Position numbers and translations under genes: made by a program. Under the pieces are notes generated by a model that saw nothing but the letters and a program-made list of their open reading frames with translations, was not told the origin of the DNA and did no database searches. Of a DNA stretch of 22,487 nt, positions 5,901 to 22,151 are shown one piece after another (the stretch's first letter is position 1; every line of letters starts with the position of its first letter). This DNA comes from a virus. The stretch is taken from IMG/VR virus record IMGVR_UViG_3300005613_000438, positions 1-22,487 of that record. The stretch is one strand, 5' to 3'.

Positions 5901-6209
5901 ATGGGAGAAACAATCAAGAGGAAAATACAGGTGGTGTCCCCTGATGGAAAAGAAATTGAGGAACTTCAGTTGGATATGGGGCTGAATGACAAACTTGTAT
6001 TTCAGTTTGAAGATGTTGCAGTATACAAAATGTATGTTTTTGATGAAAAAGCAAGAGAGGCTTTTCTTGAAATGGTACAAAAGTTTATGTCTGAAACAAC
6101 AACTGTTTTATTTGTTCCACCGGGAGTAAGATTACGTGTTCTCCATATTGAGGAAGGGGAAGTTTTATTAGCTGAAGGAGAGGCAGCAAGTAATGCCTTG
6201 GACAGTTAA
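5901..6209 (+). CDS. Unknown phage protein (102 aa)
   Basis: ATG 5901 has AAGGAG (5888-5893) at 7-base spacing, so I prefer it to a longer TTG reading from 5883. The 102-residue protein begins with KRKIQVVSPDGKEIEELQLD, then an acidic helix (about 45-75), then VLFVPPGVRLRVLHIEEGEV, suggesting a small mixed alpha/beta fold. Its 3' end overlaps the protease gene by 17 bases. No known family is recognised. Its place just before the protease fits a minor head or assembly factor; this is positional inference. Confidence 0.7.
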   Translation: MGETIKRKIQVVSPDGKEIEELQLDMGLNDKLVFQFEDVAVYKMYVFDEKAREAFLEMVQKFMSETTTVLFVPPGVRLRVLHIEEGEVLLAEGEAASNALDS

Positions 6210-7584
6210 GGATGTTGACAAATTTAAAAAAGGTCTTAATGCAGCACAAAAGAAGAAATGGGTTGGTATTGCAAACAGTGTTTTGAGGGATTGCATAAAA
6301 AACGGAGGAAAAGATAAAACATGTGCTCCAAAGGCCATTCGTATAGCAAACTCAAAATTCAGCAGGGGAGATAGTAAAATGTCAAAGAAAATTAAAGTAC
6401 CTGTCACAGCCTTTAATATTGTGGATTCTGGCTGTTCTGCCTTTTCAAAGGCAGTTGAGCTTAAGGATGGGGGGAAGGAGCCAAAGCTTCATATGGTTTC
6501 TTATAGTGGTAAAATAGTAAAGAATCACTTTTGGTGGGGTGATCTTGTTATAGATGGCAAGGGTATAAAGTTCAATCAGACAAGAAATCCTGTTCTTGAA
6601 GATCATATGTCTTCAAGGAAAATTGGATTCAGTGATAAGGTGAATGTTGGGGAAGATGGCAAAGTTACTATTGATCCTGACAAGGCTGGGTTTGTGGATA
6701 CAGAGGAAAGTCTTGAGTTTAGAAGGATATCTGAACAGGGGTTTCCTTTTCAGGCAAGTATTTCAGTAAGACCCCTTGTTATTGAGCGTCTTGCTGAAGG
6801 GACTGAAGCAGAAGTTAATGGTTTTACCATGAAAGGGCCGGGAACTATTTTCAGGGAAAGTCTGTACCGTGAAAGCAGTGTCTGCGTCTGGGGGTATGAC
6901 CATAGGACGAAATCATCAGCTTTTTCAAAAGAGGGAGCAGATGAAGTTGAACTTGAATTAAAAGAAATTGAAACAACAGTAAAATTACAAGAGAAAAAGG
7001 AGGTGACAAAAATGGCAGAAGGAACAAAAGAAAAAGAACTGACCTATGAGGAATTTTGTGAACAGAATGCAGACATGATCAAAAAGGTGAAAGAGGAGGC
7101 AGTTACGGAAACTACTTCAAGTTTTTCCACTCAGCTTGCAGAGTTAAAAAAGCAAAATGAGAAGGTTATGACTGTTCTTGGAGAAGTTCAGAAGGAGAAC
7201 AAAAACATCCAGAAGACCAATGTTTTGCTGAAGGAAGACACGGCAAAAGCAAAGGCCAATGAAATTTGGATAGCAAAGTTGTCTGATACTTCCGTCCCCC
7301 CGCATCTTTTTGATAAGGTAAAGGGCATGAAGTCATATTCTGACTTTATGGACGAAAACAACAATCTTAAGGTTTCTGAGTTCACTGAAGCAGTTGATGC
7401 TGAGATTAAAAGTTGGGAGGATTTGGGGCTTAAATCAGAGGCTCCTGTTAAGGGAACTGGGACAACCGGGAGAGATACGGAAAGTTCTGAAGCAAAAGAA
7501 GAGGCACGTCTGTCCAAAGAAGATGAGGAAGATGCTGAGGACATGCTGCGTCTTGCTGGTATTTCAGTTAAAAAAGAAGAATGA
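6193..7584 (+). CDS. ChaB-like / prohead protease / scaffold polyprotein
   Basis: The 463-residue protein has three parts. Residues 1-53 (MPWTVKDVDKFKKGLNAAQ..., with C34 and C44) resemble the ChaB-like helical domain seen at the N-terminus of other phage proteases. Residues about 64-240 fit a phage prohead protease: His138 in NPVLEDH and Ser189/Ser191 in FQASIS are the likely catalytic His and Ser. Residues 274-463 are charged and helical with a coiled-coil stretch (about 310-350) and acidic end, as expected of a scaffold. Internal in-frame ATGs with good ribosome-binding sites at 6379 (GGGGAG, 8-base spacing) and 7012 (AAGGAGGTGA) suggest nested shorter products. The scaffold directs shell assembly and the protease then removes it. 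Domain calls rest on pattern and gene order. Confidence 0.8.
   Translation: MPWTVKDVDKFKKGLNAAQKKKWVGIANSVLRDCIKNGGKDKTCAPKAIRIANSKFSRGDSKMSKKIKVPVTAFNIVDSGCSAFSKAVELKDGGKEPKLHMVSYSGKIVKNHFWWGDLVIDGKGIKFNQTRNPVLEDHMSSRKIGFSDKVNVGEDGKVTIDPDKAGFVDTEESLEFRRISEQGFPFQASISVRPLVIERLAEGTEAEVNGFTMKGPGTIFRESLYRESSVCVWGYDHRTKSSAFSKEGADEVELELKEIETTVKLQEKKEVTKMAEGTKEKELTYEEFCEQNADMIKKVKEEAVTETTSSFSTQLAELKKQNEKVMTVLGEVQKENKNIQKTNVLLKEDTAKAKANEIWIAKLSDTSVPPHLFDKVKGMKSYSDFMDENNNLKVSEFTEAVDAEIKSWEDLGLKSEAPVKGTGTTGRDTESSEAKEEARLSKEDEEDAEDMLRLAGISVKKEE
6997..7006 (+). promoter_or_regulatory. Internal full-length Shine-Dalgarno for nested scaffold
   Basis: AAGGAGGTGA is a ten-base perfect complement of the canonical 16S rRNA 3' end. 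It lies inside the protease-scaffold frame, with 8 bases between its GGAGG core and the in-frame ATG at 7012. The identical ten bases precede the decoration gene (7585-7594) and the capsid gene (8269-8278). In-frame placement at the protease/scaffold boundary makes chance unlikely. Confidence 0.8.
7012..7584 (+). CDS. Nested scaffold protein from an internal start (190 aa)
   Basis: Translation from ATG 7012 yields the last 190 residues of the protease polyprotein, beginning MAEGTKEKELTYEEFCEQ. The product is rich in Glu/Lys, has a predicted coiled coil, and ends in an acidic run (RLSKEDEEDAEDMLRLAG). These are hallmarks of phage scaffolds, which fill the prohead and are lost on maturation. 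The arrangement parallels phage lambda C/Nu3, where the scaffold is made in excess from an in-frame start inside the protease gene. The strong ribosome-binding site at 6997-7006 would give far more scaffold than protease. The nested start is seen in sequence; its use is inferred. Confidence 0.72.
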   Translation: MAEGTKEKELTYEEFCEQNADMIKKVKEEAVTETTSSFSTQLAELKKQNEKVMTVLGEVQKENKNIQKTNVLLKEDTAKAKANEIWIAKLSDTSVPPHLFDKVKGMKSYSDFMDENNNLKVSEFTEAVDAEIKSWEDLGLKSEAPVKGTGTTGRDTESSEAKEEARLSKEDEEDAEDMLRLAGISVKKEE

Positions 7585-9551: not shown

Positions 9552-10022
9552 ATGACTGATGTTTTAGGGCCAAGAACTTCCCCGAACTTTGAGAAACAGG
9601 TGGCTCATGATGTGCTGGCTCCCCTGAATCTTTTGATATCAGGGGAGTTTACAAACAGTGTGTATGGGTCTGTAGTAGGTGCTGCTAGGTTTGCTGGTAA
9701 AGTTGTGAATGTTTGGTGGTCTGTTGGTGCTTGTGGCAGAGATGATGATAATCAGCTAAGTGGTGAAGTTGATGTTAAAATCAATGGAACTACTTGTTTA
9801 TCTACCAAACCTTCTATCCGCTACGTAAGTGGAGAGACAAGCCAGCAGAAAACAACCAAAGTTACTGGAGATACTGGTATTACCAAAGGTGTGGTTAATA
9901 GTAGCAATGCTGCGTTTGAAGCCGGGGACATTTTCACAGTTGATCTTGTTCTTGTTAGTCAGTCCAGTCCCGATGTAAAAATGGGAAGTGCTGTTGTAGT
10001 TGTGGAACTGGAACCTGATTGA
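9552..10022 (+). CDS. Virion structural protein of unknown family (156 aa)
   Basis: This 156-residue protein reads as a beta sandwich: SVYGSVVGAARFAGKVVNVW, VDVKINGTTCL, FEAGDIFTVDLVLVS and MGSAVVVVELEPD are alternating strands joined by polar loops. The pattern 'F.aGD.f.vdlv' is common in jelly-roll virion proteins. ATG 9552 follows the capsid gene by 19 bases with a GGGGAG-type site. A minor decoration, head-fibre or receptor-exposed protein is the likely role, given its place directly after the capsid gene, but I cannot assign a family. Confidence 0.7.
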   Translation: MTDVLGPRTSPNFEKQVAHDVLAPLNLLISGEFTNSVYGSVVGAARFAGKVVNVWWSVGACGRDDDNQLSGEVDVKINGTTCLSTKPSIRYVSGETSQQKTTKVTGDTGITKGVVNSSNAAFEAGDIFTVDLVLVSQSSPDVKMGSAVVVVELEPD

Positions 10023-10046
10023 TAAAACAAAGAAAGGAGCAATTTG

Positions 10047-10550
10047 ATGGAAATTGACAGAATCAGAAAAGTTAAAGTAGTGACTTATCTGAAGACACCA
10101 ACAAAAGAATATCACAAGGGGGCTGAGTATGAAGTCCCCAACATTCCAAAGGAATTAATTGCTGAAGTTTTGGCAAAGAGAGATACAGTAGAAGTAGTGG
10201 AAGTAAAAGAGGATGATCTACAGCCAGCCCCTGTTGGAGGGGGAGATGTTGAAGACCAAACTTCTGATGTTCCTGAAGAAAGCACTACTTCTGCTGATTC
10301 TTCTTCTGATGGGGATGATGAAGATTATGTACCAACAGAAGATGAGTTTTTGGGAGGAGGAGTCTCCCAAAGCATTAAATCAGATGGTGCTGCTGAAGAA
10401 AATGAGCAAACAGGCATCAATGAGAATAAAGAGAAAGACGAGATATCCAAAACTTCCTCGGAAGGTAAAGAGGAAGATGAGAAACCAAATAGCAGGCAGA
10501 AAGCACTATCTTTTGCTACAAACAAAAGTAGAAGAAGAAGGAATAAATAA
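10047..10550 (+). CDS. Short N-terminal domain with long acidic disordered tail
   Basis: ATG 10047 is chosen because AAAGGAG (10033-10039) lies 7 bases upstream; TTG 10044 would be too close. Residues 1-52 (KVKVVTYLKTPTKEYHKGAE, YEVP..., AEVLAKRDTVEVVEV) resemble a small domain common next to phage connector genes. The remaining two thirds are a low-complexity acidic, Ser/Thr-rich segment (DSSSDGDDEDYVPTEDE) that ends abruptly in a basic cluster (KSRRRRNK). No membrane segment is present. A neck or head-interior role is inferred from position; the basic end could bind DNA. Confidence 0.68.
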   Translation: MEIDRIRKVKVVTYLKTPTKEYHKGAEYEVPNIPKELIAEVLAKRDTVEVVEVKEDDLQPAPVGGGDVEDQTSDVPEESTTSADSSSDGDDEDYVPTEDEFLGGGVSQSIKSDGAAEENEQTGINENKEKDEISKTSSEGKEEDEKPNSRQKALSFATNKSRRRRNK

Positions 10551-10552
10551 TT

Positions 10553-10996
10553 ATGACAAAGGATGAACTTATAACCAAGCTTCAAGAAGAATCAAAGGAT
10601 TTAAGCAGCTATCTTTCATCTGATGATTATTCTAATGCTGCTGATAGAGCCTCTTATGATACTGGATGGGCTTACCCTGTTTCTACCAGTTTTAGAATAA
10701 CATGGCAGTTACAAAGGAGCTTTAGATGGTTGTATTTTTACCTTTTGAATAATTATGCCACAAAGTTCAAATTTGAGCAGATTAATCTTCAGCAAAGGTG
10801 GGAACACTTTCGCCAGATGATAAAGGATATTGATGAACAGTTTGAGAAAGCTGTTCAGGAGAACCCTGCTGAGTTTGCTGATGTGGATACCTATAAAATG
10901 TTTGGAACAAAGATTGATGCTGGATTTGCCTATGAGAATGGTACTGGTAGAGATATTACCTATGATGAAGATCAGGAAGTAATTGTGAAACCTTAA
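10553..10996 (+). CDS. Head-tail adaptor-like protein (147 aa)
   Basis: The 147-residue protein is mainly helical. Its central part, RASYDTGWAYPVSTSFRI then QRSFRWLYFYLLNNYATKF and a long charged helix (QQRWEHFRQMIKDIDEQFEK), resembles adaptor proteins that bind the portal base. It starts two bases after the previous stop, with AAGGAA (10538-10543) at 9-base spacing. It is immediately followed by a head-closure-like gene, as in siphophage and myophage neck modules. The functional call is inference from helix pattern and gene order. Confidence 0.6.
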   Translation: MTKDELITKLQEESKDLSSYLSSDDYSNAADRASYDTGWAYPVSTSFRITWQLQRSFRWLYFYLLNNYATKFKFEQINLQQRWEHFRQMIKDIDEQFEKAVQENPAEFADVDTYKMFGTKIDAGFAYENGTGRDITYDEDQEVIVKP

Positions 10997-11011: not shown

Positions 11012-11635
11012 ATGGCAATTGGAATAGGCCCAGATATAAAAGAAGCAATACAGGAAGTAGGGACTGGTTATACAATTGTTGACATTGGTGTGAGTGGAGA
11101 AGTCCTGAAATCTGAGTCAAATGCCCAAGTGACAAAGCCCTTTATCAGGGAGTTTTTTCTTGAGGCAATGATGGCTTATGATACTTCTGGTGAGGTTGGT
11201 AACATCCTTGAGTTTGAGAGGAATCAAAATAGATATGTGGTGATGAACATTACCGATGATATCTTTGAGAATGAGGTGTTTCGGAAAAATGCTGTTTTGT
11301 ATAAGTGTAATATTAATGATGGTGTTCTTATGCGACCTTCTGGAGAGGATAACATAAGGGACACCTACCACACTCAAACACATTGGAGTCACATTACAGG
11401 GGAAATATCTGCTCTGATGACACAACCTCTGTTTGGAAATGATCCAGATACAGATGAAGAATTGGGAAGAATTGGTATTGAAAGACATGAATTGTACATC
11501 CCATCTTCTATTGGCATACAGGAGCTAGATAGGTTTGAGGCTGTTTCTGGTGAATATTATGTTGTTTCAGAGGTTATAAAAAGGAGGTACCAGTCTGTTG
11601 ATGTTGTAAGATTAGAAGAAGACCAAAGAGAGTAA
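11012..11635 (+). CDS. Head-closure / neck protein
   Basis: The 207-residue protein has a C-terminal half (RHELYIPSSIGIQELDRFEA, then SGEYYVVSEVIKRRYQSVDV) typical of phage head-closure or stopper proteins: a strand, 'lDRf', and a 'Y.V..v....' strand ending the fold. Such proteins sit below the adaptor and hold DNA in the filled head. No clear ribosome-binding site precedes ATG 11012, which is unusual in this window; the 15-base gap is AT-only-like. In related phages the next gene is normally a tail-completion protein. Here that partner appears 10 kb later at 21591, after the glycan cassette. Confidence 0.65.
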   Translation: MAIGIGPDIKEAIQEVGTGYTIVDIGVSGEVLKSESNAQVTKPFIREFFLEAMMAYDTSGEVGNILEFERNQNRYVVMNITDDIFENEVFRKNAVLYKCNINDGVLMRPSGEDNIRDTYHTQTHWSHITGEISALMTQPLFGNDPDTDEELGRIGIERHELYIPSSIGIQELDRFEAVSGEYYVVSEVIKRRYQSVDVVRLEEDQRE

Positions 11636-11661: not shown

Positions 11662-13731
11662 ATGAAGAAAAGAATACTTTTCGTTGGAGAGCATCCGTTT
11701 GCACATACTGGGAATGCGGGGATGCTTGATACTCTTGTCAGGGAACTGGATAAAGAAAAATACTTTCCTGTTTTGTTTCTTTCGGATACGGGGGTTGACC
11801 CTGCTCAATTTGTTGCAAACACCATACCTTACCCAGTAATTCACGCAAAAGATGGGCACGATGTTTGGGGGGGACAAAGGCTTTTGGATGTTCTGTCAAG
11901 GGCAGAATTCAGTGCCGTTGTTACTGTTGGGCTTGATATTTGGAGATATGCAGAAATACTCCCCCAACTTGTTAAGCTTAAAGAAGATATGGGATTTAAA
12001 CTTGTTCCCATATTTCCTTATGATCTTCAGTATATTCGTAAAGATTGGGTAAATTGGATAAACAAGCATGATTTCCCTTGTGTTTACTCACGATATGGGG
12101 AAATGGCACTTAAAGAGTATGTGCCAAAGTTAAGATATTTTAGACCCAATGTAAGAAATGCTAATCTTTGGGGGGTTCTTTCAGAAGGAGACAGGAAGAA
12201 CATAAAGAGTTCCCTTTTTGCTCCAATACCAGAAGACCACTTCATTTTTGGTTTTGTTGGTGTAAATCAGGTTAGAAAAGACCCACAGAGACTTGTAAAG
12301 GCTTTTTCTCTTATACACAAAGAAAATCCCAAAACTACCTTATATCTTCATTCAAATGTTGTTAATGGGTTTTATAATTTAAGACAGTATGCTCTTGATT
12401 GTGGACTCAGAACAGGGGATGTTGTATCAAGACCAGAACACACTGTGTTTGCCCAAGAGGAGATGGTAAGGGTGTACAATGGAATTGATTGCCTTGTAAA
12501 TTGTTCTATGCAAGAAGGTTTGTCTTGGACACCACTTGAAGCAATGTTGTGTGGTTGTCCTGTTATAGCTTCTGATTCTACTTCTCATATTGAACTTGTG
12601 AAAGGGGCCGGGGTTCTTGTTCCCTGTGATGAACTGTCATACTTGCCGTTGAAGGGGAAAGAGGGGCAAACATGGATGGAGGCACGAAGTTGCAAGGTTT
12701 CTAATATTGTAAAGGCTATGAAAGAGGTTATGGAAAATGATGCCCTGAGAAAAGAGATGAAGGAAAAGGGACTCAGAAGGGCAAAGGAATGGGTATCTGA
12801 GAAGTCAAATGTTAATACATTGCTTGATGAAGTTGTTAAAGAAAAACCCCTTGAGATTGTAGAGACTACTGGAAAAGTAGATGCTGTGTTGTTTGTGCAA
12901 CATTCTTCAGCAGGGGATGTTCTTATGTCTACCCAGTGTTTTAAAGGTATTAAGGAAAAATACAGGGGGAAGAAACTTATATATATGACACAACCACAGT
13001 TTAGGGGGATTGTTGAGGGAAATGAATATTTAGATGAAATTGTTGATTTTGATATAAGATCAATTGGTAAGTATGAGGTTGTGTACAACCCACATGGTGA
13101 GAAGATATTGCCGGGGGGATGGAACAATCTTGATGTAAAGCTTCATTATATGTATCCGTATTTTTGCAAAGTAACTCCTGATTCTATTTGTATTGTTCCC
13201 CAGACTCCCAAAAAGATTGTGGAGGAAGGTGGTTTTGATTTTGATCAGGATTATATTGTTTTGAATTCTGGGGGTAAATCAGCATATAGACAATATACTC
13301 ATTTTGATACAGTGTTTAAAGGTATTTCTCTTCCTGTTGTTCAAATAGGTTCAGAAGATGACCCAGAAGTTGGAAATGTTGTTGATCTGAGGGGGAAGCT
13401 TTCTTGGCGTGAGAGTGCGTGGGTGATGGGGAAAGCTCATGTAGCGGTTACGGTTGATAGTTTTTGTGCCCATCTTGCTGGTGCTATGGATACTCCTGTT
13501 GTTGTTCTTTTTGGCCCTGCCCCCGCAAGAGTCACAAGCCCCAGAGTATTTGATGAAAAAAGGCTTGTGTGCCTTGAGCCAAACTTACTTGATGTGTGTA
13601 GTATTCTTTCTCATTGTTGGGGGAATATTCCTTATGGTAAGGAAAGGTGCAAATCCCCCTGTATAAATACAATCTCCCCTCTTAAGGTGAGGAGAGAACT
13701 AAAAAAACTGTTAGAGGAGACACAATCATGA
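11662..13731 (+). CDS. Two-domain glycosyltransferase, GT4-like fused to GT9-like
   Basis: The 689-residue protein joins two GT-B enzymes. Residues 1-400 are GT4-like: KRILFVGEHPFAHTGNAG at the start, FIFGFVGVNQVRKDP (194-208), and the EX7E motif E285-GLSWTPL-E293 followed by GCPVIASD. Residues 405-689 are GT9-like (ADP-heptose-type heptosyltransferases): SAGDVLMSTQCFKGIKEKY (416-434), DLRGKLSWRESAWVMGKAHV (575-594), VDSFCAHLAG (598-607) and VVVLFGP (613-619), plus the C-terminal Cys-rich end of GT9 enzymes. It would transfer two sugars from nucleotide donors in sequence, with no signal peptide or membrane span. It opens the island, with GGGAG upstream and a 4-base overlap downstream. Donor and acceptor are unknown. 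Confidence 0.85.
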   Translation: MKKRILFVGEHPFAHTGNAGMLDTLVRELDKEKYFPVLFLSDTGVDPAQFVANTIPYPVIHAKDGHDVWGGQRLLDVLSRAEFSAVVTVGLDIWRYAEILPQLVKLKEDMGFKLVPIFPYDLQYIRKDWVNWINKHDFPCVYSRYGEMALKEYVPKLRYFRPNVRNANLWGVLSEGDRKNIKSSLFAPIPEDHFIFGFVGVNQVRKDPQRLVKAFSLIHKENPKTTLYLHSNVVNGFYNLRQYALDCGLRTGDVVSRPEHTVFAQEEMVRVYNGIDCLVNCSMQEGLSWTPLEAMLCGCPVIASDSTSHIELVKGAGVLVPCDELSYLPLKGKEGQTWMEARSCKVSNIVKAMKEVMENDALRKEMKEKGLRRAKEWVSEKSNVNTLLDEVVKEKPLEIVETTGKVDAVLFVQHSSAGDVLMSTQCFKGIKEKYRGKKLIYMTQPQFRGIVEGNEYLDEIVDFDIRSIGKYEVVYNPHGEKILPGGWNNLDVKLHYMYPYFCKVTPDSICIVPQTPKKIVEEGGFDFDQDYIVLNSGGKSAYRQYTHFDTVFKGISLPVVQIGSEDDPEVGNVVDLRGKLSWRESAWVMGKAHVAVTVDSFCAHLAGAMDTPVVVLFGPAPARVTSPRVFDEKRLVCLEPNLLDVCSILSHCWGNIPYGKERCKSPCINTISPLKVRRELKKLLEETQS

Positions 13732-14462
13732 TTATTTTAATGAAATCTCTAAATGAGGAGAAGGTGGTAAAAAGATGTCTTGATGACTTTCATGATCTGG
13801 AGTGGGTGGACAGGGTAATTGTTATTGATGGGAAAAGTACTGATTATACAGTACAGGAACTGGAAAGGTATACCAAAACTGAAGTGTACATACATCCTTG
13901 GAATGATTGGTATCATGACATGGAGGTGTGCCAGAGTAATATTGCTTTGAGCTATGTTCCTAATGGGGAGCTTGCCTTTATCCTTGATTTCGATGAGAGG
14001 ATAAGTCCTCAATTAAAAGAGGAATTGGCACAGTTTGATACTGAAGGGGTACAGTGTGATGTGACAGGAGTTGCCAGAAAAACAATTGAAGTATTACGTC
14101 ATGAAGACAGCCCACATGCTATAATTGATACGGATGGTTGGCCCATTGAATCACACCAAATAGGGCAATTCCCAGATTATCAGTGCAGACTGATAAGGAG
14201 ACATCCCGATCTTCATTGGGTAAATTCTCCTCACCATGTCATGAGAGGTCAAAAATCTGAGGGGGATATTAAAAACACTTTGGCCTATATTCTTCACTAT
14301 GAGAAAGATGACTACAGGGACAGGGAGAGAATTGAAAAAAAATGGTTGAGGTGTCAAGCAAGAAGAAAGATGTTGAATCTTCCCCATGATGTTTTTGAAA
14401 CAAAGATTAAGCCTGAAATTGGAGAGTATGCTGATCCTACCTTTTGGGATTGGAGGGTATGA
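13728..14462 (+). CDS. GT2-like glycosyltransferase
   Basis: The 244-residue protein matches short GT-A family 2 enzymes: MIILMKSLNEEKVVKRCLDD at the start, the nucleotide-binding acid in VIVIDGKSTDYT (residues 31-41), and a DXD-like LDFDERI (86-92) for metal and diphosphate binding. The remainder holds the acceptor region with RLIRRHPDLHWVNSPHH, as in this subgroup. No membrane helices are present, so it is cytosolic. Its ATGA start overlaps the fusion transferase by 4 bases, showing translational coupling. It should add a hexose-type residue to the same glycan; sugar and linkage cannot be read. Confidence 0.8.
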   Translation: MIILMKSLNEEKVVKRCLDDFHDLEWVDRVIVIDGKSTDYTVQELERYTKTEVYIHPWNDWYHDMEVCQSNIALSYVPNGELAFILDFDERISPQLKEELAQFDTEGVQCDVTGVARKTIEVLRHEDSPHAIIDTDGWPIESHQIGQFPDYQCRLIRRHPDLHWVNSPHHVMRGQKSEGDIKNTLAYILHYEKDDYRDRERIEKKWLRCQARRKMLNLPHDVFETKIKPEIGEYADPTFWDWRV

Positions 14463-14722
14463 TGGAATTAAGCAAACAGTTACTGGATGGACAAAAAATG
14501 TCAAATGAGGAATTAAATTACTCTTTTGGTTCTTGTCCAAATTGTGGTGCGATTGATTTTTGTGTTTTGTATGATAAAACTGAAAATGTTTCAATATTGT
14601 GGTGCTCCTGTGGGTTGTGCCTATATATTCCTAATACAATGGATGTCCTTAAAGATTTTTGGAACAGGATGAGAAGTAAGGAAGAGGAAACAGAACCAAT
14701 CTCTGGAAATGATAATTTATAA
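14462..14722 (+). CDS. Small zinc-ribbon protein, Lar-like
   Basis: ATG 14462 overlaps the stop of the GT2 gene by one base; GGAGGG (14452-14457) lies slightly close, so an alternative ATG at 14459 is possible. The 86-residue protein has CPNC at 25-28, then WCSCG (47-51) and DFWNRM (65-70). This order (CPxC, a second Cys pair with Gly, then 'WN.R') resembles the Lar family of restriction-alleviation zinc ribbons. The second knuckle is offset (C48, C50, C53), so metal binding may differ. Phages often carry such proteins against host type I restriction, yet here it sits among glycan genes. Function is uncertain. Confidence 0.55.
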   Translation: MELSKQLLDGQKMSNEELNYSFGSCPNCGAIDFCVLYDKTENVSILWCSCGLCLYIPNTMDVLKDFWNRMRSKEEETEPISGNDNL

Positions 14723-14732
14723 AGGAGAATAA

Positions 14733-15482
14733 ATGGATAACAAGCTTGAAGTGTTACAATCAATAAAAGAAGTCCCCGGTGCTGTAAGTACTGCTGAAAT
14801 GATGGCAGTATATGATACTATAACAAAATATTTAATTTGTCCAAAAGGTGGCCTCTCATTTGCTCTTGATTTTGGGTCTCATGCTGGCAAGTCTTCCATA
14901 GTTGGGGCCGCAGCTTTGAGTAATATTGGCAGAAAGGATATGTTTTGTATGATTGATCCTGTTTATGATCTTTCAAATGAATCTGCTTGGAAGCACACTA
15001 TTCAGGGTAGTTCTGATAAGATGCCTTGGGGATACTGTAGGAAGGAAACATTTAAGGAGGATGTTAGAAAAAGAGTAGTAAGACATACAGATTTGGGAGT
15101 AAGATTGATTGGACAAACTTCAATTAAATTTCTTGAAGACCTTTCAGATGTGGCAGTGTCCTATGTTTTTATTGATAGTGATGATCATCAAATTGAACTT
15201 ATTATGAGGGAAGTGGAACTTCTTGAAACAATGGTTATGGTTGGTGGTATAATAATGTTCCATGATTTTGAAAATCAGTATACTTCCCCCGCTACTGCTG
15301 CAAATTGGCTTGTAGCTGGGGGGAACTATGAAAAACTTTCAATAGATTGGGATTATATTCTTACATATGTAAAAGCAGTTTCTCTTGAAATTGGTAATGA
15401 TACTTGGCAGAATCCTAATGCAGATAGGACAAAGGTTGATGAAATTCCCAATTTTGTTGGGGCTGTTCGGAGGATAAAATAG
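14733..15482 (+). CDS. Class I SAM-dependent methyltransferase
   Basis: The 249-residue protein fits the Methyltransf_24/CmcI-like group. Motif I is ALDFGSHAGKSSIVG (44-58), the acid after strand 2 is in CMIDPVYD (72-79), and strand 4 with the metal/substrate acids is VFIDSDDH (145-152) followed by GGIIMFHDFE (171-180). Members of this group methylate sugar hydroxyls or small molecules in polysaccharide and antibiotic pathways. The start ATG 14733 has AAAGGAG at good spacing. With glycosyltransferases on both sides, O-methylation of a sugar is the likeliest role. Protein or nucleic-acid substrates cannot be excluded. Confidence 0.78.
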   Translation: MDNKLEVLQSIKEVPGAVSTAEMMAVYDTITKYLICPKGGLSFALDFGSHAGKSSIVGAAALSNIGRKDMFCMIDPVYDLSNESAWKHTIQGSSDKMPWGYCRKETFKEDVRKRVVRHTDLGVRLIGQTSIKFLEDLSDVAVSYVFIDSDDHQIELIMREVELLETMVMVGGIIMFHDFENQYTSPATAANWLVAGGNYEKLSIDWDYILTYVKAVSLEIGNDTWQNPNADRTKVDEIPNFVGAVRRIK

Positions 15483-15877
15483 TGGGTAATGTAAGAGACA
15501 TTCTTTCCAGAATATTTCTTAAAACAGATCAATTGTTTAAAAAGCAAATAAGAATTGAGCAAGCTGAAAAGATACATGTTCATTGGAGTGATATTAGGAT
15601 TCTTATGGAACCGTCACAGTTCAGGTCTTTTTTTGTGGCAATGACTTTAGCAATAAAAGCATGGGATGGTGGGTTAAGTCCCGACAGTGATAAAGTTTTG
15701 TCCCATATTGAATTTGATGAGGAGGTTGTTTTTAACAGGGAAGTGTCAATAGAACTTCAAAAAGATGGTAATTTTCATTTTCACTATAATGATTTAAGAA
15801 TTGAAATGACTCCTGACACATTTGTTATTTTGGCTAATCTGTTTTGTGATGCAAGGAAGATATATGAAAACATTTAA
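15482..15877 (+). CDS. Protein with two HxH-type repeats (131 aa)
   Basis: GTG 15482 is supported by GGAGG (15469-15473) at 8-base spacing and a one-base overlap with the methyltransferase stop. Residues 31-63 (IHVHWSDIRILMEPSQF and a following helix) and 98-130 (FHFHYNDLRIEMTPDTF and helix) repeat one unit: H-x-H-x2-D-[IL]-R-I-x-M-x-P-x2-F then an amphipathic helix. The H, D, R, P and F fall 67 residues apart in each unit. I recall similar motifs in short proteins next to glycosyltransferases in environmental genomes, without a known role. Metal or sugar binding by the paired His is a guess. No signal peptide is present. Confidence 0.7.
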   Translation: MGNVRDILSRIFLKTDQLFKKQIRIEQAEKIHVHWSDIRILMEPSQFRSFFVAMTLAIKAWDGGLSPDSDKVLSHIEFDEEVVFNREVSIELQKDGNFHFHYNDLRIEMTPDTFVILANLFCDARKIYENI

Positions 15878-16223
15878 AATGATATCAATAAGTGAAATAA
15901 ATCCGTTTGATGATGGACACCCCAATAAAAGTGAATTGTGGGACGAAAAGGAGCTTGAAATGCACAATGAAGGGGCTTTGTTTATACTTAGTGGTATTAG
16001 AAAAGGTGGAGAAGTAAATCCGATTGCAGTAAGAGAAAGGGTGGTTGATTATTTTAACATGAAAAAGAAGTATGAAAGGCTTGATGGATATAAAAGGTAC
16101 TGTGCTTGTGTTCTTTCTGGTATGACAAAAATACCTTGTTATATTTATTCAGGGGAGGAAGCTACCCCCGGTTGTCAGTATGGTGAGGAATTATGGAATA
16201 TTCCTCCAAAGGAGGCAGCATGA
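15864..16223 (+). CDS. ParB/sulfiredoxin-like domain protein (119 aa)
   Basis: ATG 15864 has AAGGAAG (15853-15859) close upstream and overlaps the previous gene by 14 bases; ATG 15879 is an alternative. The pattern NPIAVRE ... YERLDGYKRYCACVLSGMTK then IPCYI is that of the ParB N-terminal/sulfiredoxin-like fold, in which 'G..R..A....G...Ip' forms the nucleotide-binding part. A partner ParB helix-turn-helix is absent, so this is a stand-alone domain. Such proteins act as nucleases, CTPases or kinases, or may bind nucleotides in unrelated pathways. A nearby start-like MKIAFMV peptide begins at its stop. Its role in this island is unknown. Confidence 0.65.
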   Translation: MKTFKMISISEINPFDDGHPNKSELWDEKELEMHNEGALFILSGIRKGGEVNPIAVRERVVDYFNMKKKYERLDGYKRYCACVLSGMTKIPCYIYSGEEATPGCQYGEELWNIPPKEAA

Positions 16224-16243
16224 AAATAGCTTTTATGGTTTGA
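16220..16243 (+). pseudogene. Seven-codon vestigial start (MKIAFMV-stop)
   Basis: ATG 16220 overlaps the previous stop as ATGA and has a strong AAAGGAGG (16208-16215) upstream, then codes MKIAFMV and stops at TGA (16241-16243). MKIAFMV-like openings are typical of GT4 glycosyltransferases. A coupled, well-initiated ORF that dies after seven codons suggests the stub of a deleted gene. A short inverted repeat TTCTCT-A-AGAGAA (16247-16259) follows at once, where a deletion could have closed. A chance start or a regulatory mini-ORF is also possible. Confidence 0.35.
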
Positions 16244-16271
16244 CAATTCTCTAAGAGAAAGGAGAAAGAAA

Positions 16272-16631
16272 ATGAGTGTGTTTTATGTTTGTAAAATGTG
16301 TGGCAGAAGCCTAAGAATTCAATCAGGCCCCCCTCCCAAATTCTGTTATTTTGACAGGATGAGTGCAGTAGAGAATATCAGTGAGGAGGATGCTGAGAAA
16401 ATGGGACTTTTTTCAGGATATGCAGACAAGGAGGCTGTTTTTAAAAATGTTTTGGCCTTTGAGTTTCCAAAAGATATTAACTATGATCCCTTTACAGGAA
16501 ATCCAGTAGGGGGTGCTGTTAAGAAGTCTTTTGTTAATGAGTATTCCCTAAGTGACTGGCAAGATGTGATAATGAGCAGAGTGAGGGGAGTATTTCATTT
16601 TGAACAGAACATGGAGGGGAGTGATGGATAA
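16272..16631 (+). CDS. Zinc-knuckle protein with an incomplete Cys set (119 aa)
   Basis: ATG 16272 has AAAGGAG (16258-16264) at 7-base spacing. The N-terminus FYVCKMCGRSLRIQ (C7, C10) followed by PPPKFCYFDRM (C25) matches a rubredoxin-like knuckle as in rubrerythrins, but the expected fourth Cys is Asp28. The site may use Asp, or may be lost. The rest (EEDAEKMGLFSGYADKEAVF, FEFPKDINYDPFTGNP) is unfamiliar; the text 'NYDPFTGNPVGG' suggests a defined small domain. It overlaps the following GT-A-like gene by 8 bases. I cannot assign a function. Confidence 0.62.
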   Translation: MSVFYVCKMCGRSLRIQSGPPPKFCYFDRMSAVENISEEDAEKMGLFSGYADKEAVFKNVLAFEFPKDINYDPFTGNPVGGAVKKSFVNEYSLSDWQDVIMSRVRGVFHFEQNMEGSDG

Positions 16632-17475
16632 AGACAAAAAGACAATAAGTTTGGTAATTAATACAGATACAAGAAGTGGATTCATGGAAGAAGTTTCTGA
16701 ATTGTCCCAGTCTATGCAAGGGGGTACAAAGTCAATAGATTTCTTTATAGGTGGTGTTTATAATAAGATAAAGTTCTTTAGGGATTATAATGTTGAGGTT
16801 ACTTTATATGTGGACATTCATGAGCCTATTCCAGATGTTTTGCATGATGAATTTAAGTATATGCTTGAAAATGGAATGGTGGAGAACATACTTCTTTGTA
16901 AACATACCAAGCATTATGGTGGAAATTACTATCCAAAATGGTTAGATTTGAACATACTTAATGCAATAGTTATGTCTAGGAGTGAGTATCTTGTTCATTG
17001 TGATTGGGACACTGCTCTTTTCAGGAGGGATTCTTTTGATGTTGTTAGATATTTTATCACGATGATAGAGGGGAGGAAGTGTGATTTTATATCGTACCCA
17101 AGTATATACTCTCCTGACCCAGTAATAGACAATGATTTTGAGTATTGGTGGGCAAGTACAAGATTTTTTATGTGCAGAAGAGATGCCATTGATTATACAG
17201 AAATATTTAAATGTTTGGGAAGTAATGAATATTTGTATGGAAAATATGGTGAGAAGAATAGGAAATGTCCTTGGCTTGAACACATTCTTGGCATAACTTC
17301 AAAAAATGGGGTGTTTTATCCTCCAATTAATAACAAGGAGTACCTTATATTTTGTTGGAAAAGGTACATGAAGGGTTTGTTTGATAGGCTTAATGCTTTT
17401 GAGTATGACCAAGTAAAAGAGTATGTAGCCAAATGTGGTGGTATTCAATATCCCTGTGATGTCAGGGCAATCTGA
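16624..17475 (+). CDS. GT-A-like glycosyltransferase (283 aa)
   Basis: ATG 16624 is preceded by GGAGG/GGGGAG within 16612-16620 and overlaps the prior gene by 8 bases. The protein begins KKTISLVINTDTRSGFMEEV, a strand-turn typical of GT-A transferases, and has YLVHCDWDTALFRRDSF (122-138) with a DxD-like D127-W-D129 for metal/nucleotide binding. An aromatic-rich acceptor region follows (ISYPSIYSPDP, FEYWWASTRFFMCRRDA). The C-terminus (CPWLEHIL, YLIFCWKRYMKG) has no membrane span. It probably adds a sugar to the island glycan. Family number cannot be fixed by eye; a GT2- or GT27-like group is possible. Confidence 0.68.
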   Translation: MDKDKKTISLVINTDTRSGFMEEVSELSQSMQGGTKSIDFFIGGVYNKIKFFRDYNVEVTLYVDIHEPIPDVLHDEFKYMLENGMVENILLCKHTKHYGGNYYPKWLDLNILNAIVMSRSEYLVHCDWDTALFRRDSFDVVRYFITMIEGRKCDFISYPSIYSPDPVIDNDFEYWWASTRFFMCRRDAIDYTEIFKCLGSNEYLYGKYGEKNRKCPWLEHILGITSKNGVFYPPINNKEYLIFCWKRYMKGLFDRLNAFEYDQVKEYVAKCGGIQYPCDVRAI

Positions 17476-17494
17476 AAAGAAGAAAGGAATTATT

Positions 17495-18586
17495 ATGAGT
17501 AAATTAAATATAGCATTTACAGGCAACGTGTTCCCCTTTGGAGAGGGGTTTGCTTATGGTGGAGAGAGAATTTTATATTATCTTATTAGGGAACTGAGCA
17601 AATTGGGACACAATATTTATCTGTTTTCAAGGGAAGGTACAAATGTTCCGAGTAAGTATATTAAGGATTATGTCCCTATTGGGGAGCTTCAGAATGATGT
17701 TGATTTACACTATGAGGCTGTTGTGGAATATGTAAACAGGACAAAGACAGAGTTTGATATTTATATGTGTAACTATTTTGGGGATGGGTGGAATCCTGAT
17801 GTTATTGATAATTTTAACTATGTGGAACTTGTATGGTGTGTTTGGTGCCACATTAGGTGGAATATGAACAAACTTCCATTTAATACCATAACGTACTCAA
17901 GAGTTCTCCAACAGGATTTTGCAAGGCTTGGACTTCCCACAAGTATGATACATTATGGTATTCCTAAAGAGGACTATGTACCATGTTATGAACCAGATGA
18001 TTATGCGGTTTGGATTGGTAAAATTGAGGGGGGCAAAGCTCCACATCTTGCTATTGAGACAGCAAAGAAGGCAGGGATGAAAATTGTAATTATGGGGCCT
18101 CCTTATAATTCAGGTTGTTTTTGGGAGAAGGTTTACCCTTATATAGATAATAAGGATGTTTTTTGGGTTCGTGGTGTGGATGATGCCATGAAGCAAAAGA
18201 TAATGAGCATGGCAAAGGTATTTATTTCAAGCAATGACAACACATGGAAGGAACACTTTGGAATAGTGAATGCTGAATCTCTTGCAATGGGAACTCCTGT
18301 GCTTGCATTTAACAAGAGAAATCAGGATTGTGCTGTTGTTGTTGATCAGATAGTTAAGGACATGAAGACAGGGTTTATCCTAAATTATATGGATTCTAAT
18401 AATGTTGATGAAATTACTTCAGATGGTGCCAATATGCTGAAGAATTTGAAATATATCGACAGAAGAGATTGTAGAAAGGAATTTGAAGAAAGGTTTACCT
18501 CTGAACTGATGGCAAAGAGATACGATTGGTTTTTTGATAAGGTAAAAGAGGGGGAACGTTTTAATACTGTGGAGGTGCCATTCTAA
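17495..18586 (+). CDS. GT4-like glycosyltransferase
   Basis: ATG 17495 has AAAGGA (17483-17488) at 6-base spacing; a longer reading would overlap the prior gene without a site. The 363-residue protein is a GT-B enzyme: LNIAFTGNVFPFGEGFAYGG (4-23) is the acceptor-side glycine loop, YAVWIGKIEGGKAPHLAIE (170-188) is the donor-binding opening, and E253-HFGIVNA-E261 is the EX7E motif, followed by MGTPVLAF. Retaining transferases of this family use nucleotide sugars. It is cytosolic by sequence. Along with the fusion enzyme it gives the island two GT4 domains. Sugar donor is unknown. Confidence 0.82.
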   Translation: MSKLNIAFTGNVFPFGEGFAYGGERILYYLIRELSKLGHNIYLFSREGTNVPSKYIKDYVPIGELQNDVDLHYEAVVEYVNRTKTEFDIYMCNYFGDGWNPDVIDNFNYVELVWCVWCHIRWNMNKLPFNTITYSRVLQQDFARLGLPTSMIHYGIPKEDYVPCYEPDDYAVWIGKIEGGKAPHLAIETAKKAGMKIVIMGPPYNSGCFWEKVYPYIDNKDVFWVRGVDDAMKQKIMSMAKVFISSNDNTWKEHFGIVNAESLAMGTPVLAFNKRNQDCAVVVDQIVKDMKTGFILNYMDSNNVDEITSDGANMLKNLKYIDRRDCRKEFEERFTSELMAKRYDWFFDKVKEGERFNTVEVPF

Positions 18587-19245
18587 TGATAAATGTACTT
18601 GGGAGCAGTCATATCAGCTTGTTTTCTGGTGTAAACTCTTTCCCCTCTGACAATGGGGATGGTCGTAATGTAAAAGACACACTTAAAGATTTTAGGACTT
18701 GGTATACGGGGGCACATTTGTCTTATAATCTTTGTAATAAGGAGCATCCAGCAAGAAAGACATTTGATGCATGTATAGATAAACTTGACAGAAACACACC
18801 AGTACTTCTTATGATGGGTGAAATTGATTGCAGAAATCATCTTGTTAAGCAGAAGAACCTAAAGAGTGTTTCTTCTTTTGATGTTGTTTTTGAGTGTGTT
18901 GAAAAATGTATGGAAGTAGTGAAAGACATAAAAGATGAGTTTTCAGATTTAGTGGTGTGGGGGCCTCACCCAATATTATGGGAGGATTCTTTTAATGGTG
19001 TTAAAGAGTCTACCCTTTGCTGTGGTTCTTATGAAGAAATTTGTCTGATAGAGTATCTGTTTAATAGTTATTTTTCTCTTTTGTGTGATAAAGAGGGTAT
19101 AAAGTTTGCCACTCTTTACTATCTTATGATGGAGACTTTTATGAATCTTGAGAAAAAGAATTATATGATTGATCAATTTCATTTGTCTCAAGAAATGCTT
19201 CCTTATGCTTTGGATGAATTAAAAGCTTGTGGGGTGAAGATATGA
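18586..19245 (+). CDS. SGNH-like esterase/acyltransferase domain protein
   Basis: The 219-residue protein starts on the last base of the preceding stop (TAATG). INVLGSSHISLFSG (2-15) carries the block I Ser of SGNH-type folds, LLMMGEIDCRNH (74-85) is a conserved 'GEIDCR.H' block I associate with this type in polysaccharide loci, and DQFHLS (196-201) supplies the Asp-x-x-His of the catalytic pair. SGNH enzymes add or remove acyl groups on sugars. No signal peptide is present, so it acts in the cytosol. With methyltransferase and sulfotransferase neighbours it is likely a tailoring enzyme. Direction of the reaction cannot be told. Confidence 0.68.
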   Translation: MINVLGSSHISLFSGVNSFPSDNGDGRNVKDTLKDFRTWYTGAHLSYNLCNKEHPARKTFDACIDKLDRNTPVLLMMGEIDCRNHLVKQKNLKSVSSFDVVFECVEKCMEVVKDIKDEFSDLVVWGPHPILWEDSFNGVKESTLCCGSYEEICLIEYLFNSYFSLLCDKEGIKFATLYYLMMETFMNLEKKNYMIDQFHLSQEMLPYALDELKACGVKI

Positions 19246-19970
19246 AGTATGATGTTGTTTTTGTTTTTGGAGTAGGACGATGTGGCAGTGGTTTTACTTC
19301 TACTGTTTTGTCCCTTCACCCTGATATTCTTTTATTTGCTGGGCCACCATTTGGATATTTGAGAGAATCAAAGAAGAAAGTTTTTACTTTTGATGATTTG
19401 AAAAGTAATTGGAAGGTAAATCCAGAACTTGAATTTGAACAGAATATAAACAAAAAAGAAGGGTATGAAAAATATTATGAATATCTCAAAAACAAACAGA
19501 AGGAAAATGGTATTATAAACATATGGGACAATAGGGGGGAGTGTCACTATAGCTCATTATTAAATAGGATACAGGGAAGACATTTGATGCTTTATTGTGC
19601 TAGACCAATAATAGACCACTGTAGATCATTTAAGAGATTTTTTGGACAACAGGCTGGTGGCAGATATTTCCTTGATCATTTACAAAGGTCTTTACAGTCT
19701 ATAAAGGAAGCAAAGGGTGTTGATATTGTTATTCTTAATGTATGCCCCAAGAGTCCTGAAGAAAAAATAACTATATTTGAGAAAATACATAATATTATTG
19801 GTTTTACTATGACAGACCTTCAGAGAGATTTTGTTATGGAAAACAGAAGGATAGGGGGAGTTAGAGAAGAGAAGAATAACTATTCAGATGCTGAAATAAT
19901 GTCTGAAATAAATTATAATAAAAATCCTTTAGTTTTGGACTATGAAAAATTATTAGAGGAGGCCCTGTGA
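19242..19970 (+). CDS. Sulfotransferase-like P-loop protein
   Basis: ATG 19242 overlaps the previous stop by 4 bases. The 242-residue protein begins with a hydrophobic strand and FGVGRCGSGFTSTVLSLHP (9-27), the 5'-phosphosulfate-binding loop pattern of PAPS-dependent sulfotransferases. YCARPIIDHCRSFKRFF (118-134) places Arg121 and Ser129 as the 3'-phosphate contacts. Length is normal for a carbohydrate sulfotransferase. A Cys replaces the usual Ser in 'R-S-G', which is tolerated in some members. It would transfer sulfate from PAPS to a sugar hydroxyl, giving the glycan negative charge. Kinase-like P-loop proteins are a less likely alternative. Confidence 0.72.
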   Translation: MKYDVVFVFGVGRCGSGFTSTVLSLHPDILLFAGPPFGYLRESKKKVFTFDDLKSNWKVNPELEFEQNINKKEGYEKYYEYLKNKQKENGIINIWDNRGECHYSSLLNRIQGRHLMLYCARPIIDHCRSFKRFFGQQAGGRYFLDHLQRSLQSIKEAKGVDIVILNVCPKSPEEKITIFEKIHNIIGFTMTDLQRDFVMENRRIGGVREEKNNYSDAEIMSEINYNKNPLVLDYEKLLEEAL

Positions 19971-21184
19971 AACCAGACATAACTTTAATATTTCCAAATA
20001 GTGTGTTTCTTATAAATGATGGGGTGTTCCCTCCTCTTGGTATAATGTATTTGTCTGCATATTTGAAGAAGAAAGGGGTAAGGGTTCAATGTCTTGATTT
20101 TGGTATTGGACATAAAAAGGAGGAGGCAGAGGCCAATATTGTTGGTATTTCTTTTACCACTCCTCAGAGGAAGGAGGCTTTTGGTCTTCTTGATTACTAT
20201 AAGGAAGAGGGGAAATATGTAATTGCTGGAGGCCCCCATGCGACACATATGCCAGAGGAGTGTTTTAGAAATGGGTTTCACTGGGTAATTAGCGGGTATG
20301 GTGAAGAGGACTTATATCAATGTGTTTATATGCTTATTAAGGATAAAATTGAACCTAGATTTTGTGGGGAGAGTGAAAACATAGACCATTACCCTTTTCC
20401 AGATAGGAACTGTGTTCCAATAAAAGAGTATACCTATACTATTGATGGAATTCCCGCAACTACCATTATGACAAGCCGGGGGTGTCCATATAACTGTTCT
20501 TTTTGTGCCAGAATAGACAAAACATATAAGAGCCAGTCAGCAGCAAGAACACTGTCAGAAATATATTCAATTAATAATCAGTTTGGATTTGAAGCATTTA
20601 TGATTTTTGATGATACTTTTATAGCAAACAAGAAAAGACTCTCTTATATTGCAAATGGTGTTAATGGTTCCAATTTTAAGTTTAGGTGTTTTTCAAGGTC
20701 AAATTTAATTAATGAGAAGACATGTAGAGAAATGGAAAGAATGGGGATTGTTGAAGTTGGCATAGGCATTGAAAGTGGTTCAGATGCTGTTCTTGAAAGG
20801 AACATGAAGGGAACTACCAGACAAGTAAATTTAAATGCAGTTCATATGTTACATGATCATGGGATAAGAGCAAAAGCTTTTCTTATAGTAGGTCTTCCCG
20901 GTGAGACTGAAGAAACGGTAAAAGAGACAGAAAGTTGGATAAGAGAAGCAAAACCCTATGATGTAGATATAAGCATATTTCAACCACTACCAGGGTCTAT
21001 TCTCTTTGAAAATCCCAGTAAATATGGCTTGACTTTTAAATATGATGGTGATTCCATGTTTTATAAGGGTAAGCCGGGGCAGTACAAATCCAATTCAAGA
21101 ACAGAAGGTCTTGATTGTGAAACCATTGAACAATTAAGGCAGACCTTGGAAGACACTTTTAAAAGAAGGGAGTTGTTAAAATGA
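19967..21184 (+). CDS. Radical SAM enzyme with B12-binding-like N-terminal domain
   Basis: GTG 19967 overlaps the prior stop as GTGA, with AGAGGAGG (19955-19962) 4 bases upstream. Residues 1-125 form a Rossmann-like domain as in B12-binding radical SAM proteins (VFPPLGIMYLSAYLKKKG, IVGISFTTP, GKYVIAGGPHATHMPEE), but no DxHxxG cobalamin ligand is visible. The radical SAM core has TSRGCPYNCSFC with C173-x3-C177-x2-C180 for the 4Fe-4S cluster, FDDTF (214-218), GIESGS (267-272) and LIVGLPGET (306-314). Such enzymes methylate, rearrange or couple inactive carbons in natural products and sugars. Length (405) suits the class B-type architecture. Substrate is unknown; context suggests a sugar. Confidence 0.86.
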   Translation: MKPDITLIFPNSVFLINDGVFPPLGIMYLSAYLKKKGVRVQCLDFGIGHKKEEAEANIVGISFTTPQRKEAFGLLDYYKEEGKYVIAGGPHATHMPEECFRNGFHWVISGYGEEDLYQCVYMLIKDKIEPRFCGESENIDHYPFPDRNCVPIKEYTYTIDGIPATTIMTSRGCPYNCSFCARIDKTYKSQSAARTLSEIYSINNQFGFEAFMIFDDTFIANKKRLSYIANGVNGSNFKFRCFSRSNLINEKTCREMERMGIVEVGIGIESGSDAVLERNMKGTTRQVNLNAVHMLHDHGIRAKAFLIVGLPGETEETVKETESWIREAKPYDVDISIFQPLPGSILFENPSKYGLTFKYDGDSMFYKGKPGQYKSNSRTEGLDCETIEQLRQTLEDTFKRRELLK

Positions 21185-21597
21185 GCAAACTAGATATATT
21201 TGTTCTTCCACACTGTGGTGCTGGTATTGGAGACATCAAAAAGTTGGAAGAGTTGTTTAGTTGTTTTGATGTTTCCTTTAATACTAATTGTACCACATAT
21301 GATGAGATTAATAATACTAAAAAATCTGGAGAATGGTTTTTTGTCATATATGACAATGAGATTGTTGATGTCCCTCTTCTTGAGGCACTTCCAGACATGT
21401 TGGAGGTTTTTCATGTTAATGTTTGGGTTTTTTATAAGAGGAGAAGTAAAGAGGACAAATTTGTACCTGAGAGATCACCAAGAATGTTTAGAAGTGATAT
21501 TAAATTACAATCAGGATCGTTAATCCCATTATATGACCCTGAGAAGAAGATAGAAACTGAAACTATACTTGATGGATGGATTATTGAAGAATGTTAA
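21181..21597 (+). CDS. Short GT-A-like fragment (138 aa)
   Basis: The 138-residue protein overlaps the radical SAM stop by 4 bases and the tail-completion start by 7. GEWFFVIYDNEIVDVPLLEALPD lines up with GELAFILDFDERISPQLKEELAQ of the GT2 enzyme at 13728, that is, the strand before and after the DXD motif. A following strand (HVNVWVFYKRR) and SPRMFRSDIKLQSGS resemble the 'RLIRRHPDLHW' acceptor region. The nucleotide-binding first half of a GT-A fold is reduced to about 45 residues. It may be a degraded transferase or a compact member of its own family. Its even codon usage and coupling argue that it is expressed. Confidence 0.55.
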   Translation: MSKLDIFVLPHCGAGIGDIKKLEELFSCFDVSFNTNCTTYDEINNTKKSGEWFFVIYDNEIVDVPLLEALPDMLEVFHVNVWVFYKRRSKEDKFVPERSPRMFRSDIKLQSGSLIPLYDPEKKIETETILDGWIIEEC

Positions 21598-22151
21598 AGG
21601 TGAATGTAGACAGAAGGCAGTTAGATCAGATAATAAGAGCACTTGGGAGAGTAGAATCTAAAATTCATTATGAGACCAAGCATAATTTACCTAAAAGGGG
21701 GGCCATAAGGGCAAGGGACATGCTTTTTGAGAACATTCATAACCAAAAGTTTAGTGGTGGTTCTTATGGCTATAAGTCTTATGATGAGTATAATAAAACG
21801 TATTCTGAGTGGAAGTCTGAAATGGGAATGGGGTTTAAGGGATTCTGGAGGCTGTTTGATGATCTGGTTTCAAGTTTAGAAGTTTTTAATTATAGAAAGG
21901 GAGTTATGGCTGGCATTCGCTCTGGAATTCTTGATTCTGGGGGGAAGTCCATGTTTACTGCTGGTGGGGGTCAGAGGAAGGAAATAGCATGGATTGCTAG
22001 GCTTATGGAATGGGGTTGGACAAACCCTGTCACACATGCTCATGTGGGAGAGAGACCTTTGTTTCGACCAACAAGAGTTGAGTTTAAAAGGAAGGAACTT
22101 GGGAAACTTGGTGATTTGGGGATAAAGAAAATAAGGAAGGAGTGGAGGTAA
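21591..22151 (+). CDS. Tail-completion / neck protein (HK97 gp10-like)
   Basis: The 186-residue protein has the layout of tail-completion proteins that cap the tail tube: an N-terminal helix (RRQLDQIIRALGRVESKI), a central 'YDEYNKTYSEWKSEMG...' then FWRLFDDLVSSLEVFN, and a C-terminal VGERPLFRPTRVEFKRK. The last block (ERP.FRP....) is common in HK97 gp10-like and phage morphogenesis families. It resumes the structural order that stopped at 11635. ATG 21591 lies in the end of the preceding gene, with only a weak GAAGA site, so translational coupling to the island gene is likely. Confidence 0.72.
   Translation: MLKVNVDRRQLDQIIRALGRVESKIHYETKHNLPKRGAIRARDMLFENIHNQKFSGGSYGYKSYDEYNKTYSEWKSEMGMGFKGFWRLFDDLVSSLEVFNYRKGVMAGIRSGILDSGGKSMFTAGGGQRKEIAWIARLMEWGWTNPVTHAHVGERPLFRPTRVEFKRKELGKLGDLGIKKIRKEWR

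Follow-up and report, generated by a model that had tools for sequence, protein, structure and literature searches.

Sequence analysis of a modular glycosyltransferase island in the neck region of uncultured siphoviruses

The window analyzed here is the entire IMG/VR record IMGVR_UViG_3300005613_000438, a linear fragment of 22,487 bases, in which 13 overlapping same-strand open reading frames (ORFs) occupy positions 11662-21597, between a head-closure-like gene (11012-11635) and a tail-completion-like gene (21591-22151), where the original prediction had located a glycan-tailoring island. Rather than the oddity it had been taken for, the neck island is, by sequence comparison, the usual state in its lineage, with the island-less state limited to one clade, and its modules are exchanged between phages by recombination, as judged from pairwise identities and a backbone tree. 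Its enzymes would make a glycan for the virion, in the cytosol and late in infection, a reading that we favor with somewhat better than even confidence. The modular cargo, a clade whose virion proteins carry Ser/Thr-rich tails, and a miniature GT-A-fold protein encoded by the last island gene go beyond what had been predicted. The site, the gene content, the enzyme families, the modular exchange and the two states of the lineage are established at the level of sequence, from contigs that are fragments.

The island site among relatives

Relatives were collected by profile scans with the capsid, the head-closure protein and the fused GT4-GT9 glycosyltransferase (GT) of the island, giving more than 200 loci, with some contigs contributing several; E-values inside these collections are relative to the candidates. 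The same GT4-GT9 fusion gene was found in about 110 related metagenomic loci, and starts at most about 100 bp after head closure in nearly all relatives carrying it, a recurrence beyond chance, while in a few, other genes precede it, such as a heptose kinase and adenylyltransferase in locus L019. Head closure and tail completion are separated by a bimodal distance, of 2.4-11.2 kb where the fusion gene is present and −3 to 621 bp where it is absent. The comparison of gene order that had been proposed as a check showed the neck genes adjacent and the island absent in about 40 related loci, and because of these loci the island is regarded, from gene order, as a discrete block inside a compact head-tail gene row.

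Complete islands numbered 32, a few of them from near-identical genomes. Island GC content was about 3 points under that of the head module in 30 of 32, and followed that of its own genome over a range of 0.31 to 0.59, which argues that the island is old; recent horizontal insertion was ruled out on this ground and because the site is common to deep branches. The nearest relatives, L003 and L109 (same sample, probably one genome), have almost the gene order of the window, with identities of 38-71% for twelve matched island genes and 39-68% for backbone genes.

Two other arrangements of the neck were observed. In L091 and L093, a 3-kb neck gap without the fusion gene is filled by a 729-aa Ser/Thr-rich protein (L091:5330-7519), the only such filling seen, and a small zinc-ribbon ORF lies between the neck genes of L041, L073, L087, L081 and L057, which are island-less genomes without the miniature GT-A gene.

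Modular cargo and exchange

The complete islands share one plan, running from head closure through GT4-GT9, a GT2, variable cargo (often with a radical SAM enzyme) and a 138-aa gene to tail completion. With partial islands included, GT4-GT9 was present in 51 of 51 genomes and GT2 in 46 of 51, and a neck island holds up to about 15 genes. The cargo comprised 68 families over the 32 islands, 33 of them in one island only, and the sugar-tailoring enzymes among them included methyltransferases, radical SAM, DegT, dehydratase and WbqC proteins, and carbamoyl-, acetyl- and hexapeptide transferases. Both the kinase and the adenylyltransferase domains of HldE were found in one island (L019), which fits ADP-heptose as a donor for the GT9 half of the fusion protein.

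Across pairs of islands, identity of the GT4 half tracked that of the head-closure gene (rho 0.64) and identity of the GT9 half tracked that of GT2 (rho 0.78), with poor agreement between the two halves of the same gene (rho 0.30). Two GT9 types were fully linked to two GT2 types that are only 20% alike (28:15, mixed 0), and the type signal starts near residue 440 of the fusion protein, which is the start of GT9. The GT9/GT2 type changed six times on the backbone tree, five of the changes being forced by well supported branches, and type B islands have cargo of their own, such as the radical SAM family of cluster 5 (12 of 15, against 0 of 35). Because the relatives have a common history, these counts do not stand for independent observations. 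One joint of the exchange lies, on this evidence, inside the fusion gene, whose N-terminal half evolves with the neck gene and whose C-terminal half is part of the exchangeable module. Homing-endonuclease-like genes (GIY-YIG-like, HNH/NUMOD) were observed inside islands (L145:12015-12695, L006:6433-7038, L102:15956-16624) and are possible agents of exchange.

Ser/Thr-rich tails and a second GT cluster in the island-less clade

Island-less relatives have capsid, head-closure and tail-tube proteins whose last 11-70 residues are rich in Thr and Ser (for example L002:8108-9427, 9995-10666 and 12555-13184, with about 45 other loci). A test of C-terminal composition marked 107 of 920 ORFs in island-less loci and 0 of 2716 in island loci (duplicate contigs counted), and for the tail tube, identified by PHROG 476, a Ser/Thr tail was present in 32 of 32 island-less versus 0 of 39 island-bearing loci. 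Thr codon use in the tails equals that in the rest of the protein, which argues that the tails are kept at the protein level, and their origin as a DNA repeat was ruled out by the same result. On the tree, the 35 island-less rows group in a single clade that is fully supported in the Shimodaira-Hasegawa-like approximate likelihood ratio test (SH-aLRT), and with one clade and one change, repeated independent gain of the tails was ruled out; the change would be either a gain or a loss of the island, depending on the root of the tree. Eight informative contigs from a later scan (seven compact, one island) agree, with the exception of a head-closure ORF in L237 without a called tail. The literature searched yielded no description of such tails on phage capsids.

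Island-less genomes carry a GT cluster after the tail-fibre genes, in which a GT4, GT2s and methyltransferases occur together with a protein of the sulfotransferase family (PF03567, 28.9 bits). These post-tail clusters (L177 and others) nearly always begin with the same GT4 (ILTTFQEFxPGYSLTGIVKDQ), which is distinct from the fusion gene. A jelly-roll head protein was found in 76 of 105 island loci and 0 of 44 tailed loci, and is a candidate surface acceptor.

The last island gene

The 138-aa protein at 21181-21597 was modeled by AlphaFold with a predicted local distance difference test (pLDDT) score of 93.3. The best solved Foldseek matches were the peptide S-glycosyltransferases ThuS/SunS (E 1.4e-4), with many viral GT-A enzymes next (E 2e-7); a PDB sequence search gave no match, so that the protein is placed by fold search only, and profile comparison with the island GT2 gave a probability of 15%, which is suggestive and weak. 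Its likeness to SunS/ThuS is a match of the GT-A fold, from which it differs in being of half length or less, in its degenerate DxD site and in an identity of 10-12%. The gene is present in nearly all complete islands, and about half of the members of the island-less clade also have it in the neck gap; because of the latter it is considered a neck-associated gene with a GT-A fold.

Proposed function and alternatives

In the reading that we favor, the island would be read through as part of a late head-tail operon. The majority of island junctions in the window overlap or lie at most about 20 bp apart, and over the 32 islands 216 of 292 junctions overlap and 244 of 292 are within 20 bp; promoter-like matches numbered 40, against 42.3 expected, and terminator-like matches 6, against 7.9 expected, both at chance level, in agreement with the predicted lack of a visible promoter or terminator. 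Cytosolic enzymes, starting with GT4-GT9 and the paired GT2, would build a short glycan, with ADP-heptose as the probable donor for the GT9 half, and this glycan would be decorated with methyl, and probably with sulfate and acyl, groups, attached to virion proteins during particle assembly, and changed by recombination of cargo between phages. In the island-less clade, the post-tail GT cluster would take this part, and the mucin-like tails on the capsid, head-closure and tail-tube proteins would be the likely acceptors.

A simple hydropathy test on 405 island proteins revealed no flippase or other protein with multiple membrane spans; a marginal hydrophobic stretch was present in 15 of the 405, mostly inside GT folds and in none from the window, and the sole protein with two such stretches was a GT4-GT9. 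This solubility argues against lipid-carrier pathways. Gtr cassettes contain a membrane flippase and a lipid-carrier GT. A tyrosine integrase was present in 3 of 18 large related records and a serine integrase in 0 of 18, and with membrane proteins absent and integrases rare, Gtr-type lysogenic conversion was ruled out, as the original prediction had concluded from the layout. Its suggestion of a virion target gained indirect support, from the Ser/Thr tails and GT cluster of the sister clade and from the C-terminal glycans reported for mycobacteriophages (see below).

Several points weigh against a glycan for the virion. In the window's own clade, no Ser/Thr tail is present on the capsid or the tail tube. 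On the tree, the island/tail dichotomy is a single evolutionary switch, not a replicated correlation. The miniature GT may be inactive, its activity being doubtful because the DxD site reads YDNE or YDDE. The classical site of GT9 action is the lipopolysaccharide (LPS) core, at the inner membrane, and those enzymes likewise lack membrane spans. Finally, late expression, the glycan, the heptose donor and virion attachment are steps that we infer. A wider proposal, that one family has two architectures for coating the virion with sugar, namely an exchangeable neck cassette defining 'glycotypes', with the miniature GT attaching or anchoring, versus, in one clade, Ser/Thr tails on capsid, neck and tail-tube proteins served by a GT cluster elsewhere, is offered tentatively, at somewhat less than an even chance.

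Alternatively, the island might alter the host envelope late in infection (for example the LPS core heptose), masking receptors against superinfection or keeping progeny from sticking to debris. The GT9 half is of the WaaC/WaaF type, HldE-like genes occur in one island tested, variable surface-sugar chemistry is typical for envelope glycans, and core LPS transferases need no membrane span; however, no island contains a flippase, polymerase, ligase or Gtr-type protein, the island sits among neck genes and not at an early or prophage-expressed locus, and in the sister clade a GT cluster goes together with virion proteins that bear Ser/Thr tails, so that we consider an envelope target unlikely.

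The slot could also be a recombination hot spot for fitness cargo unrelated to the virion, its neck position reflecting mere tolerance of insertion. The many cargo families with their 33 singletons, the homing-endonuclease-like genes in several islands and the lower GC content speak for such a hot spot, but named cargo is nearly all sugar chemistry, GT4-GT9 and GT2 are (nearly) constant, the GC content follows the genome and hence indicates age, and the clade that lacks a neck island has retained GT cargo as well, which makes this explanation quite improbable.

Glycosylation of hypermodified phage DNA, T-even style, as counter-defence is very improbable: phage GTs can act on DNA (as stated in PMC12619734) and small ParB-like and zinc-ribbon proteins lie inside the island, but a thymidylate-synthase-type hydroxymethylase (PF00303) was absent from 18 large relatives, with control genomes positive, a TET/JBP search, run without a control, was negative, and carbamoyltransferase, WbqC and DegT cargo is typical of cell-surface or protein glycans. 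A defence island was ruled out as well, with no PADLOC model for a known anti-phage defence system matching any of ten island proteins.

Comparison with known systems

A glycan on the virion would have its closest parallels in mycobacteriophages such as Che8 and Rita (Freeman et al. 2023, cited in PMC11256854 and PMC12619734), whose virion glycans are reported at the C-termini of capsid and tail-tube subunits (PMC12619734; for the capsid also PMC11256854); the F1 phage Maravista has its GT genes close to the genome 3' end (PMC11256854). The likeness lies in phage-encoded GTs and in reported C-terminal sugars on the same proteins that bear Ser/Thr tails in the island-less clade, whereas the system described here has up to about 15 neck genes with exchangeable modules and is predicted from its genes. 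Chlorovirus codes its own GTs and sugar enzymes, and its N-linked capsid glycans are proven (PMC7019647); it resembles the island in having its own GTs and a multi-domain GT protein, and the GT4 half finds its top PDB profile match in B736L, but it is a eukaryotic large DNA virus, related to the island only distantly, through GT4. In Gtr cassettes, GT genes of temperate phages change the surface glycan and cause serotype conversion (PMC3636060, PMC3688519); the island shares phage GT genes with them but has no flippase, lies always in the neck, and most of its large relatives have no integrase. In Microcystis phage Mae-JY09 (PP395641), the capsid and head-tail adaptor genes are separated by three unknown genes and a GT annotated as RfaG-type, but this phage differs in its weak similarity to the GT4 half (25%), its other capsid and its single annotated GT.

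Island genes and genomic context

The gene order of the window is terminase, portal-like, protease/scaffold, major capsid, head proteins, adaptor, head closure, island and tail completion (Table 1). Neither the head-closure nor the tail-completion gene matched a Pfam or PHROG model, and both are named from position and conservation. Among the predicted enzyme labels, the GT4s, GT9, GT2, methyltransferase and radical SAM enzyme held up, scoring over Pfam cut-offs; the GT-A-like, SGNH and sulfotransferase-like proteins, which gave no Pfam or PDB profile match, are putative assignments by conserved catalytic motif alone. The count of thirteen sugar-transfer genes was too high, as the small ORFs at 14444, 15482, 15822 and 16272 have no shown sugar function. 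PDB profile matches of GT4-GT9 included chlorovirus B736L and WaaF/WaaC. The fusion protein carries the GT4 and GT9 profiles with E-x7-E and SxGD motifs, the second Glu being Gln in 3 of 8 GT4 halves; E285 and D419 are invariant across 8 sequences, and catalytic motifs are intact in the core GTs. In a three-sequence alignment, the sulfotransferase-like protein has the 5' phosphosulfate loop and an R-x7-S motif.

Table 1. Features of the window in and around the neck island
Feature	Position	Strand	Basis or remark
Jelly-roll (TNF/C1q-like) head protein	9552..10022	+	Model pLDDT 80, Foldseek E ~2e-3
Head-closure-like neck gene (upstream anchor)	11012..11635	+	Conserved in every relative, at 38-52% identity
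Fused GT4-GT9 glycosyltransferase, 689 aa, core island gene	11662..13731	+	PF00534 50.4 bits, PF01075 32.4 bits
GT2 glycosyltransferase	13728..14462	+	PF00535 33.9 bits; DxD present; weak SunS match
Small zinc-ribbon-like ORF (ATG 14459/14462)	14444..14722	+	
SAM-dependent methyltransferase	14733..15482	+	PF13578 35.5 bits
Small ORF without match, in 3 other islands	15482..15877	+	
ParB-N-like small protein (ATG 15864)	15822..16223	+	PF02195 E 8.5e-4, under cut-off
Small Cys-rich protein	16272..16631	+	8 relatives; no Pfam match
GT-A-like protein (ATG 16624)	16600..17475	+	D-x-D (D135, D137) invariant, 12-sequence alignment
Second GT4 glycosyltransferase (probable ATG 17495)	17435..18586	+	PF00534 42 bits
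SGNH/GDSL-like hydrolase or acyltransferase, by motif	18586..19245	+	S8, D196, H199 invariant, 6 sequences
Sulfotransferase-like protein, by motif (ATG 19242)	19227..19970	+	GxGRCGSG loop, R126, S134
B12-binding radical SAM enzyme	19967..21184	+	PF04055 76.4 bits, PF02310 52.4 bits, CxxxCxxC
Miniature GT-A-fold protein, last island gene	21181..21597	+	AlphaFold model, Foldseek
Tail-completion-like gene (downstream anchor, named by position)	21591..22151	+	Homologue directly follows head closure in island-less relatives

The window terminase has a PHROG match and the major capsid protein matches PF03864 (99 bits), and neither had a match among 50,697 phage records, which means no cultured relative at that sensitivity; the locus is placed, by sequence, in an uncultured siphovirus lineage. 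The ORF at 6193-7584 in the protease/scaffold region starts with a segment (MPWTVKDVDKFKKGL...) that we take to be ChaB-like, and the same start is seen in relative L002. The locus is also present on two contigs of metagenome-assembled genomes, DYLN01000029.1 (L172) and MNUG01000004.1 (L173), from Melioribacter and Alphaproteobacteria, which are at most possible hints of a host, as both contigs look phage-like and may be mis-binned. In L015 (92,469-base record, G005), the fusion gene is divided between both contig ends, and for this reason the record probably represents a whole genome that closes into a circle of about 92 kb.

Significance

Among phage isolates, few are known to have sugar-coated particles. 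If the island does serve the virion, its glycans would have become hypervariable in a widespread uncultured lineage, and short, defined acceptor peptides would be available from the clade with Ser/Thr tails, their chemistry being testable in laboratory E. coli. If both architectures exist in one family, module exchange would diversify virion glycans in the way that bacterial O-antigens vary.

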